Assembly (NCBI GenBank): GCA_021298285.1
Contig: JAJTFN010000028.1
Location: 1 to 40,924, forward strand
Direction of reading: 5' to 3'
DNA length: 40,924 bases
Source: Verrucomicrobium sp.
Lineage (GTDB): Bacteria; Verrucomicrobiota; Verrucomicrobiia; Limisphaerales; UBA9464
Part shown: positions 2,759 through 25,450 of the stretch, piece by piece
Numbering within the stretch: position 1 is the first letter of the stretch
How the letters are laid out: each line of letters opens with the position of its first letter
Program-made: the position numbers and the translations under genes
The notes under the pieces: generated by a model
Databases searched by the model: none
Told to the model about the DNA's origin: nothing
What the model saw: only the letters and a program-made list of their open reading frames with translations

Positions 2759-3358
2759 TCAGGCGGGAGCCAGCGACGGGATCTGGCTCGGTGCGTTGAA
2801 AGGTTCCTCGACCGGCCCGCCACCGGGAATCGCCGTCCCGGCGGGATCATCCGGGAGTCCGTGCTCCAGAAGTTGGGCCACGTCGTGCTGGACGGCCTCC
2901 AACTGGTCCAGTTGCAGGTCGGGATCGGCAATGCTGAACAGGTCACCCGACTTCGGATGCTCGTAGATGAAAAGACGCCGACCATGGTCTCGCGACTGGC
3001 CCTTGACCCGCAGGATGCGCTTGCGCTCAAGCATCACCGCCAGGATGTAGGCGGCGGCGGCATGGCGCTCCTCGCGCCGATCCAGCAGCTTGCGCAGGAG
3101 GGACTCCGCATCATCGCGGCGGATGGCCTCGGGCGGCACCGGCGGGGGCGCTTCGTAGATCCCCTTCCAGTGCGACACCAGGTTGGCCTTGGCGGGAAGG
3201 TCCGCCGCCACCTCACGGAACGCCTCGACGCAGAGGTCCATCCGCTCGAAACCGGTCTTCGTGTCCAGGAGCAGGGTGTGGTAGGTCTCCCCGTCCTGGA
3301 ACTGCCGGCCGGATCGCTGGCAGGCGTGGGCCCGCGACTGGATATGCCACTCCATCAT
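2759..3358 (-). CDS. Conserved protein of unknown function upstream of rnc
   Basis: The product is 199 residues if started at the first of two adjacent ATGs (3358, 3355). It opens with MMEWHIQSRAHACQRSGRQF, followed by DGETYHTLLL. As I recall, related PVC proteins carry a zinc-ribbon-like CxxC near this position; here only the first cysteine is kept (CQRS). The middle is basic and alpha-helical (LLRKLLDRREERHAAAAYIL), then comes FIYEHPKSGDLFSIADP, and the tail is acidic and Pro-rich. There is no signal peptide or membrane segment. Its position directly before rnc hints at co-expression, but nothing in the sequence identifies a function. The frame extends upstream to 3436, but the extra residues look non-coding. 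Confidence 0.7.
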   Translation of the reverse strand: MMEWHIQSRAHACQRSGRQFQDGETYHTLLLDTKTGFERMDLCVEAFREVAADLPAKANLVSHWKGIYEAPPPVPPEAIRRDDAESLLRKLLDRREERHAAAAYILAVMLERKRILRVKGQSRDHGRRLFIYEHPKSGDLFSIADPDLQLDQLEAVQHDVAQLLEHGLPDDPAGTAIPGGGPVEEPFNAPSQIPSLAPA

Positions 3359-3472
3359 GGATCGAATCGGCAGCGAGTATCGGATGCGGCCCCGGCGGTG
3401 CAACAGGCTTTTGGCCGGGTTTTTCCGCGCCCGCACCGGACGCCCGGCCGGGGACCATGCCTGGCCATGGGT

Positions 3473-5162
3473 TCAGAGGCGCGCGACGAGCAACTGTTCC
3501 TGGAAGACCATCTCCTTCGGCAGGTGGGTGTAGAGCTTCATGAAGAGCTCATCGGTGGCGAGCAGGTCGCGGCGCCACTCCTCGGTGTCCATCCGCTGCA
3601 ACCGCTCGAAGCGCTCCCGGGTGAACCCCTTGAGACCCTCCGTGTCGAAGTCCTCGTAGCGGGGCACCCACCCCAGCGCCGTCTCGACGGCCCCGGTCCG
3701 GCCGTCGCACCGGTCGAGGATCCACTTGAGCACGCGCATGTTCTCGCCGAACCCTGGCCAGAGGTACTGCCCGGCTTCGTCCTTGCGGAACCAGTTGACG
3801 TGGAAGATCCGGGGCGGTTCGGCCAGCCGCTTGCGCATGTCGAGCCAGTGCCGGAAATAGCGTCCCATGTTGTAGCCGCAGAACGGCAGCATCGCCATCG
3901 GGTTCGAACACCAGCGGCACGACACCGGCACGACGGCCGCCGAAGATGATGGCCGAGATGGGCACCCCCGCCGGATCGAGGGCCTCGGGCGCCATGGCCG
4001 GGTTGTTGGTTGCCGGGGCGGTGAAGCGGGAATTCGGATGGGCGGCCTTGCCCGGGGACTCGGGCGTCCAGCGCTCCCCCTTCCAGTCGAGGCACTCGGC
4101 CGGGGGCGGATCGTCGTGGCCCTCCCACCACACCGTGCCATCAGGCTTGAGGGCCACGTTGGTGTAGATCGTGTCCCGCGCGATGGTGGCCATCGCGTTG
4201 GGGTTGGTCTGGGCATTCGTGCCCGGGGCCACCCCGAAATACCCCGCCTCGGGATTGATGGCCCAGAGCCGTCCGTCCGGGCCGGGCCGCATCCAGGCGA
4301 TGTCGTCGCCGACCGTCCAGATCCTCCAGCCACGGAAGCGTTCCGGAGGGATCATCATGGCGAAGTTGGTCTTGCCGCAGGCGCTCGGGAACGCCGCCGC
4401 GACATACTGCCGGCGTCCATCCGGGGATTCGACGGCCAGGATGAGCATGTGCTCGGCCATCCAGCCTTGTCGCCGGCCGAGGAAGGACCCGATGCGCAGG
4501 GCCAGGCACTTCTTCCCGAGCAGCACATTGCCGCCGTAGCCCGACCCCACCGAGATGATCTCGTTGGATTCGGGGAAGTGGCAGATCAACCGTCGCTCCG
4601 GGTCGCCGTCGAGCAGGCAATGGAGACCGCGGTTGAAGTGGCTGGATTGTCCCAGGTGGTCGATGGCGACCCGGCCCATCCGGGTCATGATGCGCATGTT
4701 GAGCACCACGTAGATCGAATCGGTCAACTCGATGCCGACCTGCGCCAACGGCGATCCCGGCGGCCCCATCAGGTAAGGCACCACGTACAGCGTCCGACCC
4801 TTCATGCTGCCCGCGGCCAGTCCCATCAGCCGGGCCCTCATGGACGTCGGGTCGGCCCAATGGTTGGTCGGCCCCGCATCCTCGGCCAACTCGGTGCAGA
4901 TGAAGGTGCAGTGCTCCACCCGGGCCACGTCGTTGGGATGGGACCGGTGGTAGTAGCACCCCGGCAGCTTGTCCTGATTGAGCGGGATCAGGACTCCCTG
5001 CCGGACGGCCTCGGCATAGAGGAACGCCTTTTCATCCTCGGAACCGTCGCACCAGAAGATCGAGTCGGGCTGCGTGATGGCCGCGGTGGCCTCCACCCAC
5101 TCCCGGACGGCTTGGTGGGCGATCGGCGGCATTCCGTGGGTTGCGGCGGGGTTCCTGCTCAC
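3473..5162 (-). pseudogene. pckG: GTP-type phosphoenolpyruvate carboxykinase, disrupted by an internal deletion and frameshift
   Basis: PEP carboxykinase (GTP) interconverts oxaloacetate and PEP, the entry step of gluconeogenesis. The first 420 codons (5162 to about 3903) are intact and match the family: the kinase loop FPSACGKTN at 258-266 with the reactive Cys262, TVGDDIAWM at 283-291 and IIFGGRRAG at 405-413. After VPLVFE the frame breaks. The C-terminal part continues in another frame from [14 protein letters not shown] to the stop at 3473, including [20 protein letters not shown]. The family normally has about 31 residues between these parts, including a conserved FNWQHG...GSETTAA segment, so roughly 92-95 bases are missing. 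Adding them would give the usual length of about 594 residues. The start is a GTG at 5162; an ATG ten codons later is an alternative. The lesion may be real or an assembly error. Confidence 0.9.
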
Positions 5163-5230
5163 GGCCTCAATCTAGCCCGATCCCCTGCCGGGGCATCTCC
5201 AATATTGCCCGTCCATGGGCCCGTCTGGAT

Positions 5231-5286: not shown

Positions 5287-8200
5287 TCAGCGGCGGGCGC
5301 GGGCGAAGCGCTGGGCCGTGTCCGGCTTGAGCACCAGCGGGCTGGTGGCTCCCACCAGCTCCTGATAGGGACCGCCCACCTCCGAGGCGACCTCGAGCTT
5401 GCCCTCGAAGGTCACGGTCAGGGTGCCGTCCGCGTTGCTCTTGATGGAGAGCGCCGGCGGCGTGGAGGGCGCGGGCTTGGGCTCCACGACCGTCTGGACA
5501 TCCTTGCCCGCCTTGCCGGCGGCATGGATCGCCTTGATCGTCTCGCCCGAAAGTCCGCGGGTCCAGAGGGCGAGGTCATCCAACGCGCCAGCGAGGAAGT
5601 TCGGCGTGCCGTCGGGTCCGAGGACCGGAGGCTCGTCGGTGCTCAGGCCGAGGCGGGCGCCGATGGACAGGTACTTGATGTCAGGCGTGTTGATGTCCGC
5701 CAGGTAGTCCGCACGGGCGACCTCGACGCCGTCGACATACAACCGGAGCTGCGCGCCGTCGGCCGTGAAGGCGATGTGGTGGAACCCGTCACCGACCGGG
5801 AACGCCTTGGCCGAAGTGGCCCGGGCGACGTTGGGGCCGATGCTGATGGCGGCCGTCGGCAGCAGGCTGTCGGTGGCCGAGTCATAGAGCATCCCCATCT
5901 CGAACTGGCCGACCACGCGAACACCGCCGGTGGTGGCGAGGGGCCCCTGGGCGTTGCGGGCGATGACCACTTCGTTCTGGACGGCCGCCGGGAGGCTGAC
6001 CCAGGCCGATCCGCTGATGCCGGTCTTGGCCTTGGCGTAATCCGGGACCTGGATGTAGGAGGCCCCGTCGAACGCGAAGGCGTTGCCGATGATGCCGGCG
6101 CCCCACGAGGCCGTGCCGTTGACGGTGCCGTCGCCGGCCGAGGCGATGGCGTTGTCGGCCAGGGTGCCGCTGGCCTCGTTGAACTTGAGATGCGCGGCGA
6201 GGCCCGACTTGATGTCGAAGGGCGAGATCCGCACGGCGGCGTTCCGGCTGATCACGCTGCCGGCCGGATTGAAGACGGCGACGCTGTAGACGCCCTCATC
6301 CTCGGTGGCGAAGCTCGAGAGCTTCAGGGTGGCGGTGGTCGCGCCGCTGACATGGCCGCCGTTGGGCAGGTTGCGGCCGTCCTTGCGCCACTGGTAGGTC
6401 AGCCCGTCACCGCTGGCCCCGACGGTCAGGGTCGCGACGCCATTGGCCTCCACCAGGGTCGGCTGCGGATCCGAGACGACCACCGGCGGCAATCCGGGGT
6501 TCGGGGCGTTCAGCACGAGCTGCAGGCCGTTCACGCCGGTGCCGCGGTCGTAACCGGTCGTGATGCAGTCGACGGACACCACGATGGTGCCATCGGCGGA
6601 CGGTTCGACATCATCGAACCGGATGAAGTTCGAGATGGTCGGACTGCCGGCATCGGTGCTGGTGGCGCGGTAGAATCCCGGAGCCGCGTTGTACTCGTCC
6701 GAGTTGATCACGCGGGCGTAGTAGGTCTTCTCCGCCTTGCCGGCCACCTTGTACGAGGCGACCTGGAACTGCAGCGGCGGGCTGACGGCGTACACGAGGA
6801 CGGCGTGCTTGCCGGCCGGGACGTTGGCGAAGGTGAACGTCGCGGGTTCGCCGCCCGGGCTGTCGAGGTTCATGCCGTTGAGCATGCGCTGGGTGGCCGA
6901 AGAGTTGCCGGTGCCGGAACCCCAGGTGCCCGAGGTCGCATACTCGAAGGTGATGGTCGAAGGATTCTTGCTGCTGTCCAGCAGGTCGATCGCGGGGTCG
7001 GCGCCCACGTCCGGCAAGGTGCCGTTGTTGGCATTGACCGGGACGTTCCAGTAGGCCTGCGGCCAGACGCCGGTGATGTCGTCGACGTTCATCACGGTGG
7101 GAGCGCCATTGGCGCCGCTGCCGCGGAAGCTGATGCCGATGCTCTTGGTCGCGGAAGGCTTGAAGAGCTCCGCCTTCACGGCCGTGCTCTTCTCGCAGCC
7201 GACGATCTCGACCTCGAAGACGTCACCCGCGTTGGCGGCGGTCACCGGGGGCGTGGTGTAGCTGGTGGCGCTGGCGCCCGGGATGGGCTCGCCGTTGCGG
7301 AGCCAGCGCAGCGGCCAGGGACCGTTGACGGCAGCGAAGAAGGTGGCGGTCGAGCCCTCGAGAACCGGGGTGTTCACCGGCTGGAGCGTGAACCGGGCCT
7401 TGGAGCAGTCGACACCGGTCACGGCGAGCAGCTCGACCTCGGCGACCTGCATGCAGCAGCCGTTCGCCGTGGTCGTCTCGACGACCGTCCAGCGGTAGTG
7501 CTTGTACGACTTGGTGTTCGGGAAGAAGAACTCCTGGGTCTGGAAACGGGCCGTGAACGCCGCGTTGTCGACCTGGACGATCTTCTCCCAATTGCCCGCC
7601 GAGTAGCCGGTGAGGGCGTCGTCATTGGAGCCCTCGAGCACGACGACCTTGGGGTCGCGTTCCGGGGCGTCGTTGGCCGACTGGATGGTCATGCCGGTGA
7701 CCGTGGTGGCACCCACGCGGGGGCTGACGGCGAAGCCGGAGGGCTTGACCGGGGCCGGTGTGCGGCTGTCGAAGTTGAGGTACTTGGTCGGCTTGCCGTC
7801 GATGACGTTGGCGACGCCTTCCGATCCCGGGCTGTTCGACGACGAGGCGAAGACCGGATCACCCGGCTGGGTCACGTCCTTCGGGGCGCCCGTGCCCAGG
7901 AGCTCGACCTCGGCGACCTGCATGCAGCAGCCGTTGGCCGTGGTCGTCTCGACGACCGTCCATCGGTAGTGCTTGTAGGGCCGGACGTTGTCGAAGAGCA
8001 CCGTCTGGGTCTGGAACCGCGCGGTGAAGGCGAACCCGTCGAACTGCTGGATCAGTTCCCAGTTGCCCGCATTGAAACCGGTGACCGCGTCGTCGTTGGA
8101 ACCCTCGAGCTTGACGACCTTCGGGTCGCGCTCCGGGGCGTCGTTGGCCGACTGGATCGACATGCCCGAGACGACCGTGCGGCCGATGGTCGGGCTGACG

Positions 8201-8913
8201 ATGAATCCGGAGGGCTTGATCGGAGCGGGGGTGCGGCTGTCGAAGTTCAGGTACTTGGTCGGCTTGCCGTCGATGACGTTGGCGACGCCCTCGGAACCGG
8301 GGCTGTTCGACGACGAAGCGATGACGGGGTCACCCGGTTGCGTGACATCCGGCGGGACCACCGTGCCGAGCAGCTCCACCTCGGCGACCTGCATGCAGCA
8401 GCCGTTGGAGGTCGCGGTCTGGGTCACGACCCAGCGGTAGTGCTTGTAGGGCCGGTTGTTCTCGAAGGTGAAGGTCTGGGTCTGGAAACGCGCCGTGAAG
8501 GCGGGGGCGTTCACCGTGGTGATGGCCTGCCAGTTGCCGGTGTTGAAGGCGGTGATCTTGTCGTCGTTGGAGCCCTCGAGGGTGATGGTCTTGGGATCCC
8601 GCTCAGGCGCGTCATTGGCCGACTGGATCGTCATGCCGGTGACGCGGGTCGCCCCGACCTTCGGCGAAACGACGAACCCGGAGGGCTTGATGGGCTCCGG
8701 GTTGCGGCTGTCGAAGTTCAGGTACTTGGTCGGCTTGCCGTCGATCGCATTGGCGACCCCTTCGGAGCCGGGACTGTTCGAGGACGAGGCGATGACGGGG
8801 TCGCCGGGTTGGGTGACGTCGCTCTGGGCGATGGCATCGAGCCCGGAGGCCAGCCATCCGGAGGTGCACGCCAGCGCGGCGGCCCATCGACGAATGTTCA
8901 TTCGTGGGTTCAT
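5287..8913 (-). CDS. Giant exported protein: three discoidin-like repeats, Ig-like and LamG-like domains
   Basis: A 1208-residue secreted protein. The start is placed at the ATG at 8913, giving a signal peptide with core WAAALACTSGWLASG and cleavage near AIAQS-DVTQ; an ATG four codons later is also possible. Residues 32-188, 189-345 and 346-497 are three very similar repeats of 157 residues, each starting DVTQPGDPV and ending NGCCMQVAEVELL; the fold looks like an F5/8-type (discoidin) carbohydrate-binding domain. Next come an Ig-like domain (about 500-580), a middle region without a recognised domain, a second Ig-like domain (about 810-900) and a LamG-like domain (about 904-1129). The last 60-70 residues form a terminal domain ending RFARARR. 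A surface or matrix role in glycan binding is inference. A weak promoter candidate is TTGACT/TAAGAA at 8982-8952, with a long 19-base spacer. Confidence 0.85.
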   Translation of the reverse strand: MNPRMNIRRWAAALACTSGWLASGLDAIAQSDVTQPGDPVIASSSNSPGSEGVANAIDGKPTKYLNFDSRNPEPIKPSGFVVSPKVGATRVTGMTIQSANDAPERDPKTITLEGSNDDKITAFNTGNWQAITTVNAPAFTARFQTQTFTFENNRPYKHYRWVVTQTATSNGCCMQVAEVELLGTVVPPDVTQPGDPVIASSSNSPGSEGVANVIDGKPTKYLNFDSRTPAPIKPSGFIVSPTIGRTVVSGMSIQSANDAPERDPKVVKLEGSNDDAVTGFNAGNWELIQQFDGFAFTARFQTQTVLFDNVRPYKHYRWTVVETTTANGCCMQVAEVELLGTGAPKDVTQPGDPVFASSSNSPGSEGVANVIDGKPTKYLNFDSRTPAPVKPSGFAVSPRVGATTVTGMTIQSANDAPERDPKVVVLEGSNDDALTGYSAGNWEKIVQVDNAAFTARFQTQEFFFPNTKSYKHYRWTVVETTTANGCCMQVAEVELLAVTGVDCSKARFTLQPVNTPVLEGSTATFFAAVNGPWPLRWLRNGEPIPGASATSYTTPPVTAANAGDVFEVEIVGCEKSTAVKAELFKPSATKSIGISFRGSGANGAPTVMNVDDITGVWPQAYWNVPVNANNGTLPDVGADPAIDLLDSSKNPSTITFEYATSGTWGSGTGNSSATQRMLNGMNLDSPGGEPATFTFANVPAGKHAVLVYAVSPPLQFQVASYKVAGKAEKTYYARVINSDEYNAAPGFYRATSTDAGSPTISNFIRFDDVEPSADGTIVVSVDCITTGYDRGTGVNGLQLVLNAPNPGLPPVVVSDPQPTLVEANGVATLTVGASGDGLTYQWRKDGRNLPNGGHVSGATTATLKLSSFATEDEGVYSVAVFNPAGSVISRNAAVRISPFDIKSGLAAHLKFNEASGTLADNAIASAGDGTVNGTASWGAGIIGNAFAFDGASYIQVPDYAKAKTGISGSAWVSLPAAVQNEVVIARNAQGPLATTGGVRVVGQFEMGMLYDSATDSLLPTAAISIGPNVARATSAKAFPVGDGFHHIAFTADGAQLRLYVDGVEVARADYLADINTPDIKYLSIGARLGLSTDEPPVLGPDGTPNFLAGALDDLALWTRGLSGETIKAIHAAGKAGKDVQTVVEPKPAPSTPPALSIKSNADGTLTVTFEGKLEVASEVGGPYQELVGATSPLVLKPDTAQRFARARR
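7426..8820 (-). repeat. Three tandem 471-bp repeats inside the discoidin-repeat gene
   Basis: The unit is 157 codons long and starts at 8820, 8349 and 7878 on the minus strand. The third copy loses similarity after VELL, at about 7426. Blocks such as NSPGSEGVAN, IDGKPTKYLNFDSR, QSANDAPERDP and NGCCMQVAEVELL are the same in all three copies, and much of the DNA is identical too. The coding phase is kept across all copies. Confidence 0.9.
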
Positions 8914-9084
8914 GGATTCTTGCGGGTTGTGGTTACGGGAAGGGGCGCAAATTCTTACCGGACCGATACGTTGTCTAGTCAAATTTCAACCCTAAAAACA
9001 CCGTTTTCATGGATGTTTTTCGATCCAGAGGGCGTCCAGGGCATCCGTCGACATCACCCGAAGGATCGGCTCCGGGGCCACCGG

Positions 9085-12000
9085 TCAGGGGGAAAGCTCG
9101 CCAGAGGCCAACCGCACCTCTGCACCGGTCGCCGGGACGGCCACGGAGGTCGATCGCCCACCAGGCCATCGGACCTTCAGGGTGGCCTGGGCGAGGCGTG
9201 GCACCACCTTCACGGCGCTGTCCTGCGAGAGCCAGCCGGAGCCGGCCTGGACCTCCAGGGTGGGTGTGCGGGCCGCCCCCGACTCGAGCCAGAATTGAGC
9301 GCCGATGGCGTCGGGATTGCCTGGCGGGCCGACGAGCCGCACGCGCAGGCCGGGCGTTCCCCCGGAGTTGCGAAACAGGCGCGTGGCCGCCCCGTTCTGG
9401 CCGACGGCCAGGTCGGGCCGCCCATCGCCGTCGAAATCGCACACCGCGGCCCCCCGCTGATCGCCCTGGATGCGGAGGCCGCTGTCGGCACTCCCGACCG
9501 GGCGGAACCCTCCCCTGCCGTCGCCCCGGAGCAGCAGGCCGAGGCCCGCATCCTGACGGACGGCGTCGGGGTGGATGCCGGTCAGGTTCTGGCCCAGGAA
9601 CAGGTCAGGGTGCCCGTCGCCGTCGAAATCGGCGACGTTCACCGAGGAGGCAGGGGCGAACTGGGCCTCGGCCGGCAGCGTCGAGGCGACGAACCGCCCG
9701 CCACGGTTCAGGAAGACCGTGGAGGCAAGGGTGCGCACCGTGCGGGGCCGGACGAGGACCTTCCACTCGCCGAGGACCGCATCGATCGGGGCCTCGCTGA
9801 AGGCCTTGAATGAGCGGAAGTGGGTCGGGACGAACGGCAGCGCCGCGCCCAACCGCTCGAGGGAGCGCAACGGGGTGGGCTTTCCGGTCACGGGATCCGG
9901 GGCGGTCTCCAGGAAGTCGACAGTCCCGGGCCGGCTCGTCTCCCCGACCAACGCGGTGAAGGGACGGTCGACCCCGGCCGACCACGCCGAATTCCATCCC
10001 CAGTTCCCGGCGACCAGGTCCATGCGGCCGTCCCCGTCGAGATCGGCCGATGCGATCCCCCGCCAGAGGCCGGTGAGGTCCGCCAGCCCCATCTCGGAGG
10101 TCGTCTCCACGAGCCCGTCCGTCCGGCTGGCGAACACCCGGACGGGTCCCCAGTCGCAGGCCAGGACCAGTTCCGGAACGGCATCGCCGTCGAGATCGCT
10201 CCAGAGGGCCCCGTTCACCAGGCCCACGTCGGCAAGGCGGGCGCTGGCGGCGGCATCGTGCTTCCAACCGGCGCTGGCATCGAGGCGCAGCAGGGCCGCG
10301 GTCCGGGCGAAGGGGTAACGCCCGGGATCGACCCCGCCACCGACGAAGAGGACCAACCCGGCCGGAGGCGCGAGGCATCCGATCGCCAGGGTCGATGCCG
10401 ACGAGAGGCTCGGGGGAAGATCGCAGGTCCCCAGGCGCCCCAGCGACCGACCCGTCGATCCGAGCACCGCCAGGGGGGCCTTCTGCGGCTGTTCGTAGCC
10501 GCTGACCGCCGCGAGAAGCCTCGGACGCAGGGTTGCATCCCGCCACCCGACAAGGCCCAGGAGGTCGCCCGGGGCCGCGAGGTCGGGCGTGGAGGTCCCG
10601 GGGGAAAAACCACCACGGCCATCGGAGTGGAAGACCGACGGGGTGCCGCCCGAGCCGGAGCCGATCACCAGGTCGTCGTTCCCGTCGCCATCGAGGTCGA
10701 ACCAGGCCAGCCCCGGCCCCTGCTGGCTCAGCACAAAGGGAAGCAGCGGTTGGCGCTGGTAGTCGTCGAACGCAGGCTCCTGGTGCGTGTGCCCCAGTCG
10801 GTCGCCGACGTCGGTGAAGAGGGCCGGAGGCCGGGACACGGCGGGCGGGACCGCCGGGGGCCGGTCCGGCTCGTTGAGTTCGTAGAGCCGGTCGGGAACC
10901 ACGTTGGTGACCCAGGAGATGCGGCCGCTGCGCCACCGCACCTCCAGCGAGGCCATCGAGGAGGTCCCGAACACCGCCATCGGCTGGGAACCCGAGAGGT
11001 AGGACCCGCCGGCGATGATCTCCTTCGATTGCGTCCGTCCTCCCTCATGCAACAGGACACGCGCACCGATGCCCGCCCGGTTCGGGGACAGGCCCTTCAA
11101 CCGAACGGCCACCCGGGCCCCGGGTGCCTCGTTGCGATAGACCTCCAGCGGGGAGTTCAGGCAGTTGACGACCAGGTCCAGGTCGCCGTCGCCATCGAGG
11201 TCGGCCAGGGCCATGCCGTGGCGGACGGCGGCGTTGGTCAGTCCCCACTCGGCGGTGGTCTCATGGAACCTGCGGTCACCGCCGTTGCGGAAGGACCTCA
11301 GGGGAAGTGCCAGGCCGGGATACAGGCCGTAGTGCTCGGCCAGTTCGCGGGTGAAGGCCGCCTGGCGCGAGGCCTCGGTCGCGTACCCGGACCAGGGATG
11401 CTGGCGGCGGCGGATCTCCATCTGGGCATCGAGGTCCTGCACGTCGCGGAAATGGCCCGAGGTGACGAGCAGGTCCTCGAACCCGTCGAGGTCGACGTCG
11501 AGGAACATGGGCGACCAGGACCAGTCGGTGGCCGCCAGGCCGGCATACTGGGCGATCTCGGCGTACGAGCCGTCGCCCCGCGCGGTGAACAGGGTGTTCT
11601 GGAAGACCTGCGGCGTCCCTGCATCCGCGCCGACGGGAGGCCACTCGGGCGCATCCGCCAGCGACTGGCGCTTCCGGGTCCGCAGATCGGAGGCAAGCAT
11701 CTCCACCACCAGGAAGTCGAACCACCCGTCCCGGTCGATGTCGGCGAAATCCACCCCCATGGAGCTGGAGGGGATCCTTCGGAGGGTGAAGGGCGCGGCG
11801 GCCCGGAACCGGCCCCGGCCGTCGTTGAGCCAGAACCGGTCCGGAGTCCAGTAGTCGTTGCAGACGTACAGGTCGGGCGAGCCGTTCCCGTCGACATCCC
11901 GGAAGGTGGCGGTGAGCCCCCAGTCGAGCGGGGCCTCGCGCAGCGGCCGGCCATCGGCATCCAGGAAGGAGCCGTCCGTCCAGGACACGAGGGTGAACCG

Positions 12001-12747
12001 CCCGCGGCCGTCGTTGAGGTACAGGCGGTCGGCCTCGCCGCATTCGGCGACCTCGTCGCCACGCATGCGGAAACGGCCCTGCAACGCGGGCGGGATGACG
12101 GGCTTCCCGCCGACGTTGCGCACCGAGAGCCGCCCGACGTCGCGGATGTCGTTGGTGCGGTAGTTCGCCACATAGAGGTCCAGCGTGCCGTTGCCGTCGA
12201 CGTCGGCCAGGGCGAGGGTCGAGCTGCCGGAATCGCCGCGGAGGCCCGCCTCGACCGTCGTCTCGGCGAACCGGCCACCCACGTTGCGGAAGCACCGGAC
12301 ACCCTCCAGGGCGGTCGAGACCAGCAGGTCGTCGTGCCCGTCGCCGTCCAGGTCCGCGAAGACCGCCCCGCGTGTCCTCCCGAGCGCCGGAGGCAGCCCG
12401 GCCTCCGCCGTGACCTCCCGGAACCGCCATCCGCCCAGGTTCCTGAACAGCCTCGACGGGGACTCGAGGCCGCAGACGAACAGGTCGGGGAGCGCGTCGC
12501 CGTCGAAGTCGCCGACGGCCAGTCCCGCGCCGTTGGCCAGCACCCGGTTGGCGGCGATGGCCACCTCGCTCAGGAGGTTGGTGGCCCCAAGCCCGGTCTC
12601 GGTGGCGGGCAGTCGTCGAAAGCCATTCCGGGAGCCGTTCCTTGGCGCGAGGGCGGCATGACGGTGCCCCGGGCCGTCGGTCCAACCGGCGGCGGAGACC
12701 TCCAGCAGCGCGAGCCCCAGCCAACCGAGAAGCACGGCGACCTTCAT
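9085..12747 (-). CDS. Giant exported FG-GAP/VCBS-like protein with two ASPIC/UnbV domains (CRTAC1-like)
   Basis: A 1220-residue exported protein with signal peptide MKVAVLLGWLGLALLEVSAA. It contains 12 calcium-loop motifs of the DxDxDG type (for example DLDGDGHDDLLV, DVDGNGTLDLYV and DFDGDGRPDLAV), typical of FG-GAP beta-propeller blades. They fall in two blocks, each closed by an ASPIC/UnbV-like domain. The first is at about 552-626 (NRAGIGARVLLHEGG to VRWRSGRISWVTNV), the second at about 1139-1219 (GNPDAIGAQFWLESG to LKVRWPGGRSTSV). So the protein looks like a duplicated propeller plus UnbV unit. The ATG at 12747 overlaps the stop of the upstream cytochrome gene by four bases (ATGA), indicating translational coupling. 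An extracytoplasmic, calcium-stabilised binding or enzymatic role is likely, but the substrate is unknown. Confidence 0.88.
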   Translation of the reverse strand: MKVAVLLGWLGLALLEVSAAGWTDGPGHRHAALAPRNGSRNGFRRLPATETGLGATNLLSEVAIAANRVLANGAGLAVGDFDGDALPDLFVCGLESPSRLFRNLGGWRFREVTAEAGLPPALGRTRGAVFADLDGDGHDDLLVSTALEGVRCFRNVGGRFAETTVEAGLRGDSGSSTLALADVDGNGTLDLYVANYRTNDIRDVGRLSVRNVGGKPVIPPALQGRFRMRGDEVAECGEADRLYLNDGRGRFTLVSWTDGSFLDADGRPLREAPLDWGLTATFRDVDGNGSPDLYVCNDYWTPDRFWLNDGRGRFRAAAPFTLRRIPSSSMGVDFADIDRDGWFDFLVVEMLASDLRTRKRQSLADAPEWPPVGADAGTPQVFQNTLFTARGDGSYAEIAQYAGLAATDWSWSPMFLDVDLDGFEDLLVTSGHFRDVQDLDAQMEIRRRQHPWSGYATEASRQAAFTRELAEHYGLYPGLALPLRSFRNGGDRRFHETTAEWGLTNAAVRHGMALADLDGDGDLDLVVNCLNSPLEVYRNEAPGARVAVRLKGLSPNRAGIGARVLLHEGGRTQSKEIIAGGSYLSGSQPMAVFGTSSMASLEVRWRSGRISWVTNVVPDRLYELNEPDRPPAVPPAVSRPPALFTDVGDRLGHTHQEPAFDDYQRQPLLPFVLSQQGPGLAWFDLDGDGNDDLVIGSGSGGTPSVFHSDGRGGFSPGTSTPDLAAPGDLLGLVGWRDATLRPRLLAAVSGYEQPQKAPLAVLGSTGRSLGRLGTCDLPPSLSSASTLAIGCLAPPAGLVLFVGGGVDPGRYPFARTAALLRLDASAGWKHDAAASARLADVGLVNGALWSDLDGDAVPELVLACDWGPVRVFASRTDGLVETTSEMGLADLTGLWRGIASADLDGDGRMDLVAGNWGWNSAWSAGVDRPFTALVGETSRPGTVDFLETAPDPVTGKPTPLRSLERLGAALPFVPTHFRSFKAFSEAPIDAVLGEWKVLVRPRTVRTLASTVFLNRGGRFVASTLPAEAQFAPASSVNVADFDGDGHPDLFLGQNLTGIHPDAVRQDAGLGLLLRGDGRGGFRPVGSADSGLRIQGDQRGAAVCDFDGDGRPDLAVGQNGAATRLFRNSGGTPGLRVRLVGPPGNPDAIGAQFWLESGAARTPTLEVQAGSGWLSQDSAVKVVPRLAQATLKVRWPGGRSTSVAVPATGAEVRLASGELSP

Positions 12748-13529
12748 TCGAGCGGCAGCGCGACCTTGGCGCCGGGAGTCGGGGGAAAACGGCCCTCGAG
12801 ATACCGGATCAGGGAGAGGATCTGCGGCTCGGTCAGGGGCCCGGTGTACGACCGGTCGAAGCCGGGCATGAAGGACCCGGGCTTTCCGATGCGGATCCAC
12901 TGGGACCAGTAGGCCGCCCCACCATGGGGCTTGGCCGCGAGGTCCGGCACCATGGAGGCCCGGTGTTCAGCCTCGTGGCAGATGGCGCAGGCGGCACGGT
13001 ACAACTCGGCCCCGGTCAACCCCACCGCGGGCGTGGAGTGGCAGTTGGCGCAATCCCCCTTGAACACGGCCTGGCGGTCGGCGAAGGCGGCCAGGCGGTT
13101 CTTCTGGCGCTCGTCGGGCTCCGGGATGTCCACCCGCACGGTCAGGGTGTTGGTCGCGTCGGCGGTCCACAGCCGGAGGGTCTTCTCCAGCAGGCCCCAC
13201 TTGCCGGGGATCTCCACGACCACCTCAAGCTCTCCCGCCGCGTGCGGCCCGATGGTCCACGGCAGGGCGGGGATCTTGGGCGTCGTGCAATGGCACGAGG
13301 CGTCGACCCCCAGCACCCGGACGGGCGCCTCCAAATGGTTGGTGTAGCGGAACCTCAGGGAAAGGTTGGTCAGCAGATGGGGAGAACGGGCCTGGTTGGT
13401 GCGCGGCCAGAACACCAGGCCACCCCCGGCGGGAATCGCGTCGGCCAGGAGCCGGGAGCCAAGGCAGACCACCAGCCAGAGCACCCCGAGGAGGCGGCTC
13501 GTGGACCGTGATCTGGCGATGGGTCTCAT
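12744..13529 (-). CDS. Exported DUF1573-like / cytochrome c protein
   Basis: A 261-residue exported protein. It begins at the ATG at 13529 with a signal peptide (core LLGVLWLVVCLG, cleavage near LLADA). Residues about 50-135 resemble DUF1573 (DASCHCTTPKIPALPWTIGP at 77-95), an ASH-like beta domain. The C-terminal part has two heme c sites, CANCH at 160-164 and CAICH at 181-185, and a candidate axial methionine at M221 (SFMPGF). The two heme sites are only 16 residues apart, so this is either one cytochrome domain with an added heme or two reduced ones. Its stop overlaps the start of the FG-GAP/UnbV gene, suggesting that the cytochrome works with that protein outside the cytoplasm. The electron partner cannot be told from the sequence. 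Confidence 0.85.
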   Translation of the reverse strand: MRPIARSRSTSRLLGVLWLVVCLGSRLLADAIPAGGGLVFWPRTNQARSPHLLTNLSLRFRYTNHLEAPVRVLGVDASCHCTTPKIPALPWTIGPHAAGELEVVVEIPGKWGLLEKTLRLWTADATNTLTVRVDIPEPDERQKNRLAAFADRQAVFKGDCANCHSTPAVGLTGAELYRAACAICHEAEHRASMVPDLAAKPHGGAAYWSQWIRIGKPGSFMPGFDRSYTGPLTEPQILSLIRYLEGRFPPTPGAKVALPLE

Positions 13530-13701
13530 GCGTGGGGTGTTGGCTTGGCGTCGAGGATGATGTCGGCCCGGAGGCCTTTCAAGATCGCCGGCGCCGGGGT
13601 GACAGCCTGCCAGGAACATCCGCGGGCAGGGGCCAAGGTCCTCCGGACAAGCCCCTTCCGTCCGCCGGCAACGGGTGTACCGTGGCCCGATCCGACGCAT
13701 C

Positions 13702-14460
13702 ATGAATGCCTCCTCCAACGTCTCCGCACGCACCCCTGAAGCCCCCCGACGACAACCCGACATCCGGTTCCTGGAGGGCCCCCGCTCCCGCTGGGACGAC
13801 CTCAAGTTCGTCATCGACATCGCCCGGGAATTCATCCGGGGCTTCCGGGCGCTGCACTTCTCCGGACCATGCGTGGCGGTGTTCGGTTCGGCCCGGTTCC
13901 CGGAGTCCAGCCCGTACTACGAGCAGACCCGCCGATTGTCGGCGGAAATCGCCAAGCTCGGGTTCACCATCATGACCGGCGGCGGACCCGGCCTCATGGA
14001 GGCGGCCAACCGGGGCGCACGGGACGTCGGTGGCCGCTCGGTGGGCTGCAACATCGTGCTGCCGATGGAGCAGAATCCCAACCCCTACCTCGATCGGTGG
14101 GTGAACATCCGCTATTTCTTCGTCCGCAAGACCCTCCTCATCAAATACTCCTACGCCTTCGTCATCGTCCCCGGAGGGTTCGGCACCCTGGACGAATTCT
14201 TCGAGGCGATGACGCTGATCCAGACCGGCAAGATCCAGAATTTCCCGGTGATCATCTTCGGCCGCGAATTCCACCATGAACTGCTCGAGTACATCGACAA
14301 GATGCGCCGCCTCAAGACGATCTCCGAGAACGACCTGAAGCTCTTCCTGGTGACCGACTCGGTCGACGAGGCGGTGGACCAGATCCGGCAGGCCATTCCC
14401 AAGTACGGACTCAAGCACATCGAGCGCAAGCCGAGCTGGCTCCTGGGCGAGCACCGTTAG
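13702..14460 (+). CDS. LOG-family protein (putative nucleoside 5'-monophosphate phosphoribohydrolase)
   Basis: The 252-residue product belongs to the LOG/TIGR00730 family. Characterised members split nucleoside 5'-monophosphates, including cytokinin ribotides, into base and ribose 5-phosphate. Visible signatures are VAVFGSARFPESSP near the start of the Rossmann fold, GGGPGLMEAANRGA in the middle, and the hallmark PGGFGTLDEFFE with the active-site glutamate. It has a longer N-terminus than minimal LOG proteins (about 55 residues before the fold), as in the larger LOG subfamily. The start was set at ATG 13702; an in-frame GTG at 13675 would add nine residues. It is transcribed divergently from the DUF1573-cytochrome gene and ends with TAG. 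The physiological substrate is unknown. Confidence 0.9.
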   Translation: MNASSNVSARTPEAPRRQPDIRFLEGPRSRWDDLKFVIDIAREFIRGFRALHFSGPCVAVFGSARFPESSPYYEQTRRLSAEIAKLGFTIMTGGGPGLMEAANRGARDVGGRSVGCNIVLPMEQNPNPYLDRWVNIRYFFVRKTLLIKYSYAFVIVPGGFGTLDEFFEAMTLIQTGKIQNFPVIIFGREFHHELLEYIDKMRRLKTISENDLKLFLVTDSVDEAVDQIRQAIPKYGLKHIERKPSWLLGEHR

Positions 14461-19845: not shown

Positions 19846-22800
19846 TCAGCGCTTGATGGCGCGCAGGAACCTGGCCGCGTCGGTGCCGAGCGGCAGCGTG
19901 ATCGGGGTGTTGGCCCCCGGCTGGGCGACCCACGGGCCGGTCAGGCTCGGGGCCACCTCGAAGACGAAGCCCGCGGGCAGCGGCTGCGGGTCGGAGGTGA
20001 TGCTCAACTGGCCATTGACCAGGGCCACCGAGATGCGCGGGGTGGTGGTGGAGGAACCACCGGCCGCCGGCGTCGGGTCGTCCTTCGGCGCCGGGTGCGA
20101 GATCACCGTGTAGAAGTTGACCTCCTTGGTGGAATTGGCCCCTTGGTCGGGCTGGTTCTGCAGGTTGATCTCGCCCTTGGCGGCCACGAGGATCTCCTTG
20201 GTGGTCATGGCGACGCTCATGCCGACCGAGCGGATGCCGCCCACCGGCGAGGCGTTGACGAAGGGCAGGAAGCTTGGCGTGAGCGGCTTCACCGTCTTGG
20301 TGGCCTCGTCCATCTCGAAGACGCGGGCGGCCACCTGCTGGGCCTCGTAGCCGTCGGGCTTCGACACCCAGGCCACCGTGAAGCGGCCCAAGCCATCGGC
20401 ACCGACCACGGCACGGTCGGCATCGGCCCGGAAGCCGCCTTCGCTCACGTCGGCCAAGGCGGCCAGCGCGCGGGTGCGGGCGTCCCAGATGGCGACACGG
20501 ACCGCCGTCGAACCCACCACCCGGCCCACCAGGAACACCCAGGGCTGGTTGATGTGGCCACCCAGGCGGGTGCCGTCGCCGCGGCCGCCGTCGAAGTTCT
20601 CGCCGGAGGTCGACTGGGCGACGGGCTCGCCCTGCTGCTCACCAGCATTGTTGTAGAAGTACAGCTTGCCGGCGACGCGGACCGCGAAGCCACCCTTGAA
20701 GGCGGCGACATTGGCCCAGAGGTCGCCGTCGGCCACCTTGAAGGACTCCTTCACCACCTTGCCGTCGGGCGAGAAGATGGTGGCGGTGGCGCAGTTGCCG
20801 TCGGTGCGGATCTGGTTGGAACGGTCCTCCACGACCGAGACGAAGTTGCCGTCGCTCAGGGCGGCGACATCGCCGCCGAAGCGGGTGATCTGGTTGCCCG
20901 GGGCCGCGCCCGAGGTGCGCCGGCCGTTGGCCGAATCCTGGGCCTTGCTCATTGCCGTCTGGACGAGGGTGGCCGGGTCGATCTTGAAGGTCTGAACCGT
21001 GCCGTAGCGTCCGTCGCCGAGCCGGTCGAAGCCGCCGGTGAAGCGGTTGTCGCTGTTGAAGCCGTCCACCACGTGCGGGGAGGCCTCGGCACCGGTGATG
21101 AAGTGGACCGCGCCCGGACGGGGATCACCCGCCACGCGGCCCGGATTGCCGTTCTGGCGCGAGGCGTTGATGGCCCCCTTGAAGGGCACCCCGGCATCGT
21201 TGAAGAAGGCCTCGCCCAGCTTCATCGCGCCGCCGGCCGCCGGCTGGAGGGCCACCACGTAGCGCTGCTCGGCGGTGCTGCCGTCGGCGAAGGTGTTGGC
21301 CTCGACCAGGAAGGTGGAGGTGCCCAGCACGGAGGCGAAGGGCTCCCAGTTGCCGAGCGAGTCGGCCGCCGGGACGATCACCGGCGTGTCGGCCACGATG
21401 CGTTTGAGGCCCGCCGACTCGATGCTGCCCGGCCGCACCGGGATGACGAACTGGCGCATGGCCACGACCCGCTTGTCCGGCTCGCCGCTGTTCAGGCTTT
21501 CCCAGACCACCGCGATGGAATCGTTGCGGAAGGCCACCCGGGGATTCCTGGCCTCGAGGGTGTCCGCCGCGGGCAGTTCCTTCTCGCTGACGTGGAAGGT
21601 CTTGCCGAGGGGCTTGCCCGTGGCGTCGAAGACCCGGGCCATGACGATCTTGGCGCTGCCGCCGGTGCCCGAGGCGTCGTCGAACACGACGGCCACGCGG
21701 CCGAGCGAGTCGATGCCGACATCGCAGCGGCCCGGGGCCAGCAGTTCCAGGTCGTCGGCCACCGAGCGGCTCCAGCGCAGGGTACCGTTGGCGTTGAGCA
21801 CGCTGAGCCAGACCTGGCTCTTGCCATCGGCATCCTTGCCGATGGCGACCGAGGCGTAGGCGTCGTTGCCATTGCCGTGGAAGCCCACCCCGTCACCCCG
21901 CCCACCGGCGCCGGCGATCGGGTTGCCCGCGACGGCCGCCAGGTCGATGTTGGTCGAGATCGGCGTGCCGGCATTGTCGAAGAGCCGGATGCGGCCCGCG
22001 CCGTTGTCCGAGAAGCGCACGGCGAACCCGTTTTTGGTCACGCCCGACCCGTGCCACATCTCGCTCTTGGTGGCGGTGGCGCTGGCCAACTGGGTGGCCT
22101 TGACCTCCTTGCCGGTCTTGTCGACCACCCGGACGATCACGTGGTTGGCCGCGGCCTCGCCCTTGTAGACGCTGACCAGGTCATCCCCCTGCCGGCTCTC
22201 GCCGACCACCACCACGTTGCCCGTGGAGAGGAACTCCCAGTCGCCGATGCGGATGTTGCCGGAACGAGCGCCGTACTCGACCGGCACGCCATTGACGATG
22301 CCCACCGGGGTGCCCGCGTCGGTCAACAACTGGACGGCCGGCCAGTCGCCCGCGTCCTGGTAGCCGGCGAACTCGACCACCTCGAGCCCCAGGTCGAACG
22401 AGGTCGAACCCATGCCCAGTCCGTCACCGAACAGGTTCGACTTGATCTTGGGTCCCCACCCGGTGCGCCCCGAGACGGCGCTGCCGTCCTTGCGGAAGTA
22501 GGACAGGAATCGGGAGGTGAGCGTCTGTCCGGCGAAGGCCGGATCCACCGAGGTGATGGCGGTCTCGGGGGTGATCGGCTTGCTGTCACGGTCGAAGAGC
22601 GTCCAGACGGCCTCCAGGTCCGAGAGGGCGTCTCCGTCGTCCTCCCAGCCCACGATCACGTTGCCGTTTCGGCCGATGGCCACGCCCAGGCTTTCGGTCT
22701 TGGAGTTGTTGATGGTGTCGGACGTGTTGACGTAGACGGTCTCCCCGACGGGATTGACGCCATTGTCCTCCGGTTTTCCCGGAAGCGCTTGGCCGAAGGC

Positions 22801-22854
22801 CTGCGCCGCCACGAAGGCGGCCGCCAGGAACGGCAGGTTTCTTTGGAGGTTCAT
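19846..22854 (-). CDS. Giant exported protein of unknown function with verrucomicrobial C-terminal domain
   Basis: The 1002-residue product begins with a signal peptide (MNLQRNLPFLAAAFVAAQAF, cleavage after G-QA). The body has many short repeats of the type seen in beta-propeller or sialidase-like exported proteins, such as GVAIGRNGNVIVGWEDDGD, VGIDSLGRVAVVFDDASG, VAALSDGNFVSVVEDRSN and VVGADGLGRFTVAWVSKPD. These suggest a propeller fold, but no catalytic signature is visible. A linker PAPKDDPTPAAGGSSTTTP leads to a terminal domain of about 65 residues ending AARFLRAIKR, which resembles the end of the discoidin-repeat protein at 5287. A surface-anchored binding protein is a reasonable guess. 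It stands alone, with a terminator downstream and a long gene-free region upstream. Confidence 0.75.
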   Translation of the reverse strand: MNLQRNLPFLAAAFVAAQAFGQALPGKPEDNGVNPVGETVYVNTSDTINNSKTESLGVAIGRNGNVIVGWEDDGDALSDLEAVWTLFDRDSKPITPETAITSVDPAFAGQTLTSRFLSYFRKDGSAVSGRTGWGPKIKSNLFGDGLGMGSTSFDLGLEVVEFAGYQDAGDWPAVQLLTDAGTPVGIVNGVPVEYGARSGNIRIGDWEFLSTGNVVVVGESRQGDDLVSVYKGEAAANHVIVRVVDKTGKEVKATQLASATATKSEMWHGSGVTKNGFAVRFSDNGAGRIRLFDNAGTPISTNIDLAAVAGNPIAGAGGRGDGVGFHGNGNDAYASVAIGKDADGKSQVWLSVLNANGTLRWSRSVADDLELLAPGRCDVGIDSLGRVAVVFDDASGTGGSAKIVMARVFDATGKPLGKTFHVSEKELPAADTLEARNPRVAFRNDSIAVVWESLNSGEPDKRVVAMRQFVIPVRPGSIESAGLKRIVADTPVIVPAADSLGNWEPFASVLGTSTFLVEANTFADGSTAEQRYVVALQPAAGGAMKLGEAFFNDAGVPFKGAINASRQNGNPGRVAGDPRPGAVHFITGAEASPHVVDGFNSDNRFTGGFDRLGDGRYGTVQTFKIDPATLVQTAMSKAQDSANGRRTSGAAPGNQITRFGGDVAALSDGNFVSVVEDRSNQIRTDGNCATATIFSPDGKVVKESFKVADGDLWANVAAFKGGFAVRVAGKLYFYNNAGEQQGEPVAQSTSGENFDGGRGDGTRLGGHINQPWVFLVGRVVGSTAVRVAIWDARTRALAALADVSEGGFRADADRAVVGADGLGRFTVAWVSKPDGYEAQQVAARVFEMDEATKTVKPLTPSFLPFVNASPVGGIRSVGMSVAMTTKEILVAAKGEINLQNQPDQGANSTKEVNFYTVISHPAPKDDPTPAAGGSSTTTPRISVALVNGQLSITSDPQPLPAGFVFEVAPSLTGPWVAQPGANTPITLPLGTDAARFLRAIKR

Positions 22855-23239: not shown

Positions 23240-25450
23240 ATGATGCACCGGTTCGTCCATCGCGTCGGTCGGCTCCTGACCGGAGGGCTGCTTTCCCTGG
23301 CAGCCGGTCGTGCCTCGGGCGAACCAGCCGCGGGAGCGCGTTATGTGGAAACGGTCAAACCCCTGCTCACGCGGTCCTGCGTCGGCTGCCACGGGGCCGT
23401 GCGACCGAAGGCGGGCCTCCGGCTCGACACCGCGGCGGGAGCCTTGAAGGGGGGTGACTCGGGGCCGGCCCTCCGACCGGGCGACCCCGACGGGAGCCTC
23501 CTGGTGCAGGTGGTCGAGGGCACCCACCCGTCGATCGACCAGATGCCCTACCGGCGCACCCCGCTGGATCCGGCCGAGATGGAAACGCTCCGGAACTGGA
23601 TCGCCGAGGGAGCCACAGCACCAACGACGGAGACGCCCGGGGTGTTCGTCCACTGGGCCTTCGTGGCGCCCACGCGTCCGCCGGTGCCACGGGTCGCCCA
23701 CGGGACCGAAGGCGCGCCGCCGAACCCGATCGACGCGTTCGTCCGCGGACGCCAGGAACGCCTGGGCCTGCGGCCCTCGCCGCCGGCCGATCCGGCCACC
23801 TGGCTGCGCCGGGTGCACCTCGACCTGGTCGGCCTGCCGCCCGAGCCCGAGGAGGTCGATCGCTTCGTGGCCAGCGACTCTCCCTTGGAACGCGGCCGGG
23901 TGATCGACCGCTTGCTCGGTTCGCCGCACCACGGGGAGCGCTGGGGCCGCTGGTGGCTCGACATCGCCCGCTATGCCGATTCCAACGGCTACAGCATCGA
24001 CGCCCCCCGCTCCATCTGGCCCTACCGCGACGCCGTGGTGGCGGCCCTCAACGCCGACCAGCCCTTCGACACGTTCGTGGTCGAGCAGCTCGCCGGGGAC
24101 CTGCTGCCCGGGGCCACCCTGGCCCAGCGCGTGGCCACGGGGTTCCACCGGAACACCCAGATCAACCAGGAGGGCGGCATCGACCCGGAGCAGTTCCGCA
24201 TCGAGTCGGTCTTCGACCGCGTGGCCACCACCGGCTCGGGCCTGCTGGGGCTGAGCATCGGGTGCGCCCAGTGCCACGACCACAAGTTCGACCCGATCTC
24301 CCACCGTGACTACTACGGCCTGTTCGCCTTCTTCAACGACCAGGACGAGCCGACGCTCGAGCTGCCGGGGGTGCCGGCCGGCACGGTCGATCCGAAGGGA
24401 AAGGCCGCCGGCTGGGCCACCACGCTGGTCTTGAGCGAACGCAGCCAGCCACGCACGACGCGGCGCTTCATCCAGGGCGATTTCACCCGGCCGGCCGAGC
24501 CGGTGGAGCCGGCGACACCCGGGGTCCTGCCGCCGCTGCCGGCCGGGCCCGCCCGCCGGGCCAGCCGCCTCGACCTGGCCCGGTGGCTGGTCTCGCCCAA
24601 CCACCCGCTGACGGCCCGCGTGGTGGTCAACCGCATCTGGCAGCAATACTTCGGACGCGGCCTCGTGGAGACCGAGAACGACTTCGGCACCCAGGGAACC
24701 CCACCCTCCCACCCGGAGCTGCTCGACTGGTTGGCGGTCGAGTTGCAGGAATCGGGCTGGAGCCTCAGGCACCTGCACCGGCTCATCACCGGATCGGCCA
24801 CCTACGGCCAGTCGTCGGTCGCACGTGCGGACCTGCGCGAAAGCGACCCGCTCAACCGCTGGCTTGCCCGGCAGAACCGCCTGCGCCTCGACGCCGAGAT
24901 CATCCGGGACGTCGCGCTGGCCGCCTCGGGCCGACTTGACCGCACGCTGGGCGGACCGCCGGTGCAACCCCCGCAGCCGGCCGGCCTGGGGGCCTTCACG
25001 CAGAGCAACCGCGATTGGGCGGCCAGCCCCGGGGGCCAGCGCTTCCGCCGCGCCCTCTACACGCGGCTCCAGCGGGCCACCCTGCACCCGGCCCTGGCGG
25101 TCTTCGACGCGCCCGACAGCTTCACGACCTGCACCCGCCGGCTGCGCAGCAACACCCCGCTGCAGGCCCTCACGCTGCTGAACGACGCCCAGTTCCACGA
25201 ACTGGCCCAGGCGCTGGCCCGGCGCATGGCCGGGAGCCCGGGCCCGGAGCCCGAGCGGATCGCCCGAGCCTTCCAGCGCTGCACGGCCCGTCGACCCGCC
25301 CCGGAAGAGATGGCCCCCCTCCTGGCGCTGCTCCGCACCGAGGGCTCCGCCTCCACGTCGCCAACCTCGCCCGAAGGACCACCGGCCGCCGGCTGGGTCG
25401 CCGTGGCTCGGGTGCTCCTGAACCTCGACGAAACCATCACCCGGGAATGA
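23240..25450 (+). CDS. Planctomycete-type cytochrome protein (PSCyt1-DUF1549-DUF1553)
   Basis: A 736-residue exported protein of the large PVC family with an N-terminal planctomycete cytochrome C segment (CVGCH at 47-51) after a signal-like start, then DUF1549 (PSCyt2, about 163-370) and DUF1553 (PSD1, about 430-700). A second heme-like site, CAQCH, lies at 342-346. Hallmarks are RVHLDLVGLPPEPEEV, WWLDIARYADSNGY, NRIWQQYFGRGLVETENDFG and SNTPLQALTLLND. The section between DUF1549 and DUF1553 (about 370-430) is shorter than in many relatives. Its TGA overlaps the ATG of the DUF1501 gene (ATGA), a pairing that is usual for these families. The enzymatic role is unproven; such genes often accompany polysaccharide or sulfatase loci, but none is present here. 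Confidence 0.92.
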   Translation: MMHRFVHRVGRLLTGGLLSLAAGRASGEPAAGARYVETVKPLLTRSCVGCHGAVRPKAGLRLDTAAGALKGGDSGPALRPGDPDGSLLVQVVEGTHPSIDQMPYRRTPLDPAEMETLRNWIAEGATAPTTETPGVFVHWAFVAPTRPPVPRVAHGTEGAPPNPIDAFVRGRQERLGLRPSPPADPATWLRRVHLDLVGLPPEPEEVDRFVASDSPLERGRVIDRLLGSPHHGERWGRWWLDIARYADSNGYSIDAPRSIWPYRDAVVAALNADQPFDTFVVEQLAGDLLPGATLAQRVATGFHRNTQINQEGGIDPEQFRIESVFDRVATTGSGLLGLSIGCAQCHDHKFDPISHRDYYGLFAFFNDQDEPTLELPGVPAGTVDPKGKAAGWATTLVLSERSQPRTTRRFIQGDFTRPAEPVEPATPGVLPPLPAGPARRASRLDLARWLVSPNHPLTARVVVNRIWQQYFGRGLVETENDFGTQGTPPSHPELLDWLAVELQESGWSLRHLHRLITGSATYGQSSVARADLRESDPLNRWLARQNRLRLDAEIIRDVALAASGRLDRTLGGPPVQPPQPAGLGAFTQSNRDWAASPGGQRFRRALYTRLQRATLHPALAVFDAPDSFTTCTRRLRSNTPLQALTLLNDAQFHELAQALARRMAGSPGPEPERIARAFQRCTARRPAPEEMAPLLALLRTEGSASTSPTSPEGPPAAGWVAVARVLLNLDETITRE

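Follow-up and report, generated by a model that had tools for sequence, protein, structure and literature searches.

The window analysed here, a stretch of 40,924 nucleotides from a Verrucomicrobium sp. (contig JAJTFN010000028.1 of assembly GCA_021298285.1), contains a gene at 9085–12747 on the minus strand that encodes an FG-GAP/UnbV double protein of 1220 residues. Its N-terminus (MKVAVLLGWLGLALLEVSAAG) was judged by eye to be a Sec-type signal peptide, and the protein is thus predicted to be secreted. A plus-strand reading of the same interval was rejected, as the open frame lies on the minus strand. The gene shares 4 bases (12744–12747) with the upstream DUF1573-cytochrome c gene (12744–13529, minus strand). 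The gene downstream (5287–8901, minus strand) encodes a secreted lectin-like protein of 1204 residues, in which Pfam identified F5/8 type C (three copies by eye), immunoglobulin (Ig) and laminin-G-3 domains. Within 8700–13900 no promoter-like sites were found, and the single terminator-like site, compared with a mean of 2.1 in shuffled sequences, lies inside the FG-GAP gene.

The double protein consists of two propellers, each followed by an UnbV/ASPIC domain. Using the motif D-x-[DN]-x-[DN]-[GA], we detected seven calcium loops in the first propeller (approximately residues 42–554; 11086–12624, as delimited by Pfam, the structure model and the motif scan), at residues 80, 132, 182, 284, 336, 417 and 516. 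Five loops are kept in the second propeller (approximately residues 641–1124; 9376–10827, as delimited by the model, fold matches and the motif scan), at residues 684, 851, 902, 1040 and 1104. The 12 loops claimed in an earlier sequence-only reading of this DNA were therefore borne out; 5000 shuffles of the protein gave 0.30 loops on average and never more than 4. Across 43 aligned rows, including that of the window, the number of loops ranged from 5 to 7 in the first half and from 2 to 7 in the second. An extra loop at residue 791 was present in 24 of the 43 rows and absent from the window's protein. Pfam assigned nine stretches to FG-GAP_3, and no NCBIfam family matched the protein at E 0.001.

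UnbV_ASPIC matched the whole protein at E 4e-16, with a single stretch at residues 559–622 (10882–11073). The second UnbV domain (9124–9309) gave no separate stretch when the protein itself was scanned, and in the genome search it scored 22.5 bits, or 24.6 bits with its neighbours in frame, against a cut-off of 23.4. Profile comparison of the second UnbV with the first was clear (probability 97.8, 73 columns, 30% identity). This comparison, together with the fold match of model residues 608–1186 described below, confirmed the second domain. Thus, the predicted pair of UnbV domains is present, one behind each propeller.

A structure model of residues 32–1220 (predicted local distance difference test score, 91.7; predicted template-modelling score, 0.92) showed two units resembling cartilage acidic protein 1 (CRTAC1), an animal extracellular protein. 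Murine CRTAC1 (9etn_A) was the top match with Foldseek (E 3.4e-23; next row, 4e-12) and with VIA-align (Z 39.0, 451 residues, 2.8 Å), the latter to model residues 608–1186, in the second half. A sequence-profile search of the PDB likewise ranked CRTAC1 first (E 2.6e-31); a toxin-complex subunit that carries FG-GAP came next (E 6e-9, one stretch), and integrin alpha chains after it (E 9e-6 and weaker). A designed seven-bladed propeller matched 285 of 286 residues in the second propeller (Z 25.2, VIA-align), which supports seven blades there. Structure prediction had been proposed for counting blades. In the explanation that we favour, each unit would combine an integrin-type propeller of seven blades with an UnbV domain behind it, a transthyretin-like fold.

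The protein shares with CRTAC1 the calcium-loop FG-GAP propeller, the UnbV domain behind it and the overall fold, but CRTAC1 (PDB 9etn) is one unit and the window's protein is two. Vertebrate CRTAC1 proper also carries an EGF-like (epidermal growth factor-like) C-terminal domain; as no such domain was matched by Pfam at E 0.001, we filed the protein as CRTAC1-like. Likeness to integrin chains was confined to the propeller part, both by VIA-align and by sequence profile, and Pfam gave no match to the integrin alpha thigh and calf domains behind the propeller.

The two halves aligned over 465 columns (E 8e-38, 24% identity) by profile comparison. The FG-GAP repeats aligned with themselves out of register almost equally well (E 1.6e-31), so the argument for homology is carried by the UnbV comparison. 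As judged from these profiles, the halves are homologous and long diverged. Further, a full-length relative with 37% identity occurs in Fodinibius roseus, a member of another phylum, which indicates that the doubling is old. The proposed internal duplication therefore holds insofar as the protein comprises tandem CRTAC1-like units with homologous halves, whereas a recent duplication is at odds with the low identity and with the Fodinibius relative.

The double protein belongs to a large paralog family. In the window's genome, 16 UnbV matches were found: two in each of four open frames, one pair spread over two frames of contig C224, and six single matches. Matches to the protein were present in 18 of 20 genomes (relatives, with its own genome included) and in 118 of 384 genomes of the class; in the class searches few candidates were scored per genome (two for the FG-GAP and lectin-like proteins, up to six for the cytochrome). 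Tandem FG-GAP/UnbV gene pairs were found at loci L019, L070, L072, L079, L081, L082 and L085, with four genes in a row at L070. Some of these tandem genes overlap by 4 bases, and those of L019, L072, L079, L081 and L082 adjoin PSCyt/DUF1501-type clusters. The 181 full-length FG-GAP rows were thinned to 128 by removing any that was more than 90% identical to another, with preference given to keeping labelled rows. One FastTree tree of these rows defined sides A (47 rows) and B (81 rows).

The upstream gene encodes 261 residues from an ATG at 13529, a start chosen by eye. Pfam detected DUF1573 (PF07610; 33.4 bits, cut-off 26.1) and Cytochrome_CBB3 (34.6 bits, cut-off 27). Two CxxCH haem motifs, CANCH (13038–13052) and CAICH (12975–12989), lie 21 residues apart; both, and an MP downstream, were invariant in five aligned rows. 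The sequence thus has the CxxCH and downstream Met ligand of a class I-type cytochrome c, and haem binding is predicted. In the structure model of this protein the DUF1573 part alone was reliable, the cytochrome part being of low confidence. Among 58 cytochrome rows picked by similarity (90 bits, repeats of the same gene included), the CxC of DUF1573 and both CxxCH motifs were kept in all 58, with a spacing of 21 residues in 57 and 20 in one. This CxxCH-x16-CxxCH arrangement was observed in the window, in L117–L125 and elsewhere; two haem motifs for apparently one cytochrome domain would be odd. Other DUF1573 proteins have the same two-cysteine site, and a table in one paper (PMC9312934) lists a UGC selenoprotein (Sec) variant of DUF1573, which suggests that the domain may be redox-active. 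Unlike those proteins, the window's DUF1573 is joined in one chain to a cytochrome that has two CxxCH motifs.

The sequence-only reading took the tight overlap of the cytochrome and FG-GAP genes to indicate that their products are made together. A 4-base overlap was rejected as a sign of joint function, because 85 of 933 same-strand neighbour pairs (crude gene calls) show one, and so does the usual cytochrome copy in same-genus relatives. There it overlaps by 4 bases a gene that, from its sequence, putatively encodes thymidylate kinase (tmk). Among 11 same-genus copies outside the window, eight lie beside this putative tmk and two do not, and one, the second copy of the window's own genome (C183), is at a contig end; none was found beside an FG-GAP gene.

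The claim of joint production was instead supported by recurrence and co-inheritance. In 6 of the 128 FG-GAP rows, all on side A (6/47 compared with 0/81 on side B), the cytochrome gene comes immediately before the FG-GAP gene and is on the same strand; at least 800 bases upstream were available in 44 of 47 side-A and 75 of 81 side-B rows. The five further loci (L166, L198, L206, L209 and L211) come from metagenome bins, and the window's genome is itself a draft of 244 contigs. By called starts, the genes in these loci are separated by about 17–114 bases (27 in L166). The paired loci fall in two places in the trees. The window and L166 were sisters in the FG-GAP trees (supports 99, 98 and 94/96), and in the cytochrome tree they grouped with L308 (98), whose cytochrome gene faces a converging lectin-like homolog. 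L198, L211 and the pair L206 and L209 formed one subclade in the FG-GAP and cytochrome trees alike. The cytochrome tree contained 51 of the 58 rows, with support from the Shimodaira–Hasegawa-like approximate likelihood-ratio test alone and with long branches, including that of the window, flagged. As paired cytochromes and FG-GAP proteins share subclades, the two genes seem to have been inherited together. The pairing is real but rare, a minority arrangement. Both this recurrence and the similarity between the halves, whose joint absence had been named as grounds for abandoning the sequence-only reading, were therefore found.

A lectin-like (laminin-G/discoidin/Ig) gene, which that reading did not mention, is a commoner partner of the FG-GAP gene than the cytochrome. 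Homologs within 4.5 kb, labelled by a tblastn score above 120 bits, accompanied 12 of 47 side-A rows and none of 81 side-B rows; some loci had flanks of 1.5 kb only, so misses are possible. They were found in both gene orders, upstream of the FG-GAP gene at some loci and downstream at others. In a control of 40 cytochrome-centred stretches there were no lectin-like matches above 120 bits and one weak match at 55 bits. Large same-strand neighbours at some side-A loci, chosen by eye and hence not a source of rates, were scanned with Pfam. An upstream laminin-G or PA14 gene was also present at the cytochrome–FG-GAP pairs L198, L206 and L209, and laminin-G or PA14 neighbours occurred at L171, L177, L195, L196 and L205. 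Further, in a separate set of 66 loci, neighbours were clustered and one representative each of some clusters was scanned. At 13 of these loci, which include no side-A row, an immediate neighbour of the FG-GAP gene belonged to a cluster whose scanned member has laminin-G and PA14 domains.

The histories of the lectin-like and FG-GAP genes differ. The lectin-like proteins of G185, from the same family, and G008, from the same genus, formed the sister group of the window's lectin-like protein (support 100). The FG-GAP protein of the window did not group with theirs and paired with L166 (94/96). Forcing it to group with G185 and G008 was disfavoured (approximately unbiased test, p 0.021), the grouping having been named after the trees were seen. 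Both halves placed the window in a group without G185 and G008 (supports 97 and 99), and pairing with L166 was recovered by the first half only (85). A second FG-GAP gene of G008, on contig C111, is 50% identical to that of the window. The mismatch would follow from the exchange of a cassette and likewise from the loss of old paralogs.

We propose, with evenly divided confidence, that the protein is a secreted, calcium-stabilised, two-unit CRTAC1-like scaffold that binds a lectin-like partner and is encoded with a cytochrome in two lineages. The scaffold would be located beyond the inner membrane, with the cell surface as the most likely site, and would hold the large secreted protein with laminin-G, discoidin and Ig domains encoded by the next gene; through this protein it would hold carbohydrate or another surface. 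In two lineages, including that of the window, the co-inherited DUF1573-diheme cytochrome c is encoded with the propeller protein, and its CxC site and two haems may supply or withdraw electrons for whatever the complex acts on. We infer this redox role from the motifs of the cytochrome and from the Sec variant mentioned above (PMC9312934).

Several points weigh against the scaffold proposal. Adjacency shows neither contact nor electron flow, and we found no family member with a tested function. The neighbours vary across the FG-GAP family: large unrelated genes stand at L182, L174 and L309, and no cytochrome is an immediate neighbour at the 65 loci of the 66-locus set other than the window's. 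Because these genomes encode many lectin-like proteins (loose candidates run into the tens in each), the non-orthologous laminin-G/PA14 neighbours may be partly due to chance. The class has 65 places for the cytochrome at E 4e-39 or better; judged by flanks of at least 1.5 kb where the contig allows, the window's is the only one that adjoins an FG-GAP gene. The gene-neighbour survey suggested by the sequence-only reading thus found a pairing that recurs, yet in a small share of places whether counted from the FG-GAP genes or from the cytochromes. The variety of neighbours, this single place and the frequency of 4-base overlaps would also suit a family of general secreted adhesion or binding proteins beside which the cytochrome is a chance neighbour, co-transcribed without a shared function. 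We regard this as a real but minority possibility, as the same gene pair in the same order occurs in two separate subclades and the trees of both proteins match. The adjacency of the partner genes would also suit another role for the propeller protein, in carrying the cytochrome or the lectin-like protein or helping it to mature, instead of structural scaffolding. Between G185 and G008, change per column was 0.44 in the FG-GAP protein and 0.27 in the lectin-like protein, which might be read in the same way but says little on role. A carrier or maturation role is quite unlikely, given that 122 of the 128 FG-GAP rows have no adjoining cytochrome (9 of the 122 have less than 800 bases upstream) and that the nearest solved relative is CRTAC1, for which we know of no carrier or maturation role.

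The origin of the two halves also admits an alternative, namely that the second half is a different UnbV-propeller protein fused long ago and that the halves are separable modules. This is possible but doubtful. The halves are only 24% identical, although their domain order is the same. Single-UnbV frames shorter than 900 residues numbered 54. Of these, 22, repeats of a gene included, scored below 290 bits with both half profiles; the first-half profile gave the better score for 21 of them, and the second-half profile a slightly better one for the other frame. Such a pattern favours a fusion, but a faster-changing second half, with its longer branches, could yield it as well. The remaining 32 are closely related to one half; they comprise fragments at the ends of loci, copies that are split, and a few genes that encode a single half. 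Separately encoded halves again speak for a fusion. L216 (1139–5166) has a second-half-only gene (1139–2992) followed by a first-half-only gene (3199–5166), reversed in order relative to the double protein and each with its own start and a signal-peptide-like N-terminus; L208 (4512–6635) and L204 (2756–4717) have first-half-only genes. In the half phylogeny, however, which had been suggested as a check, these genes lie in side A beside double proteins; sides A and B were not cleanly separate when the second half was used alone. The first halves of L216 and L208 grouped together (100) within a set of seven that includes five double proteins (98), and the second half of L216 grouped with the double protein L248 (99), so that the two L216 genes belong to different subclades. 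From these positions the half-only genes look like later splits and not ancestral single units. They leave the odds between duplication and fusion unchanged, and two related units may have been fused long ago.

The scaffold proposal can be extended, tentatively and at rather low probability, to a cassette. Since the lectin-like gene follows the genus and family and the FG-GAP gene follows the cytochrome-linked lineage, the cytochrome and double CRTAC1-like genes might be a two-gene cassette exchanged beside a conserved lectin-like gene. The products would form a surface redox complex, in which the fast-changing propeller pair would set specificity; that the propeller halves can also be encoded apart is a further element of this extension.

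Other features of the window were noted. A GTP-type phosphoenolpyruvate carboxykinase gene (3473–5162, minus strand) is apparently split over two frames, by assembly error or decay; 3549–5132 holds the N-terminal domain and positions 1–186 of the 357 of the C-terminal domain. A DUF1501 gene (25447–26964, plus strand) likewise occupies two frames (profile positions 1–252 and 268–390). It is preceded by a PSCyt1-PSCyt2-PSD1 gene (23240–25450) and followed by a DUF7133-HEAT-cytochrome c gene (27029–30118), and these genes make up a planctomycete-type cytochrome cluster. A secreted-looking protein of 1002 residues (19846–22854, minus strand) had no Pfam match at E 0.001.

The double protein itself is of a known kind. 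Passages on tandem bacterial integrin-type propellers (Chouhan et al., 2011; PMC3192720) describe seven-bladed calcium-loop propellers, sometimes two per protein; the main text does not contain "UnbV", "ASPIC" or "CRTAC", and no partner genes were seen in those passages. Among titles and the beginnings of abstracts, a scope outside which most subscription journals fall, we found no description of the present gene set or of a DUF1573-cytochrome. A further comparison is with the planctomycete-type cytochromes of freshwater Verrucomicrobia, from the same phylum. As passages of that study (PMC5615132) report, proteins with Laminin_G_3, PA14 and F5/8C domains are linked there to c-type cytochromes, and cytochrome and binding module can share one protein with PSD domains, whereas in the window the genes are separate, the cytochrome is of the DUF1573-diheme type and the CRTAC1-like protein is double. 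According to the same passages, Verrucomicrobiota have many cytochromes linked to carbohydrate-binding modules of unknown function (PMC5615132). The recurrent set of CRTAC1-like, lectin-like and DUF1573-diheme cytochrome genes would offer a concrete, testable complex, and would allow the binding partners of the CRTAC1 fold to be sought in bacteria.

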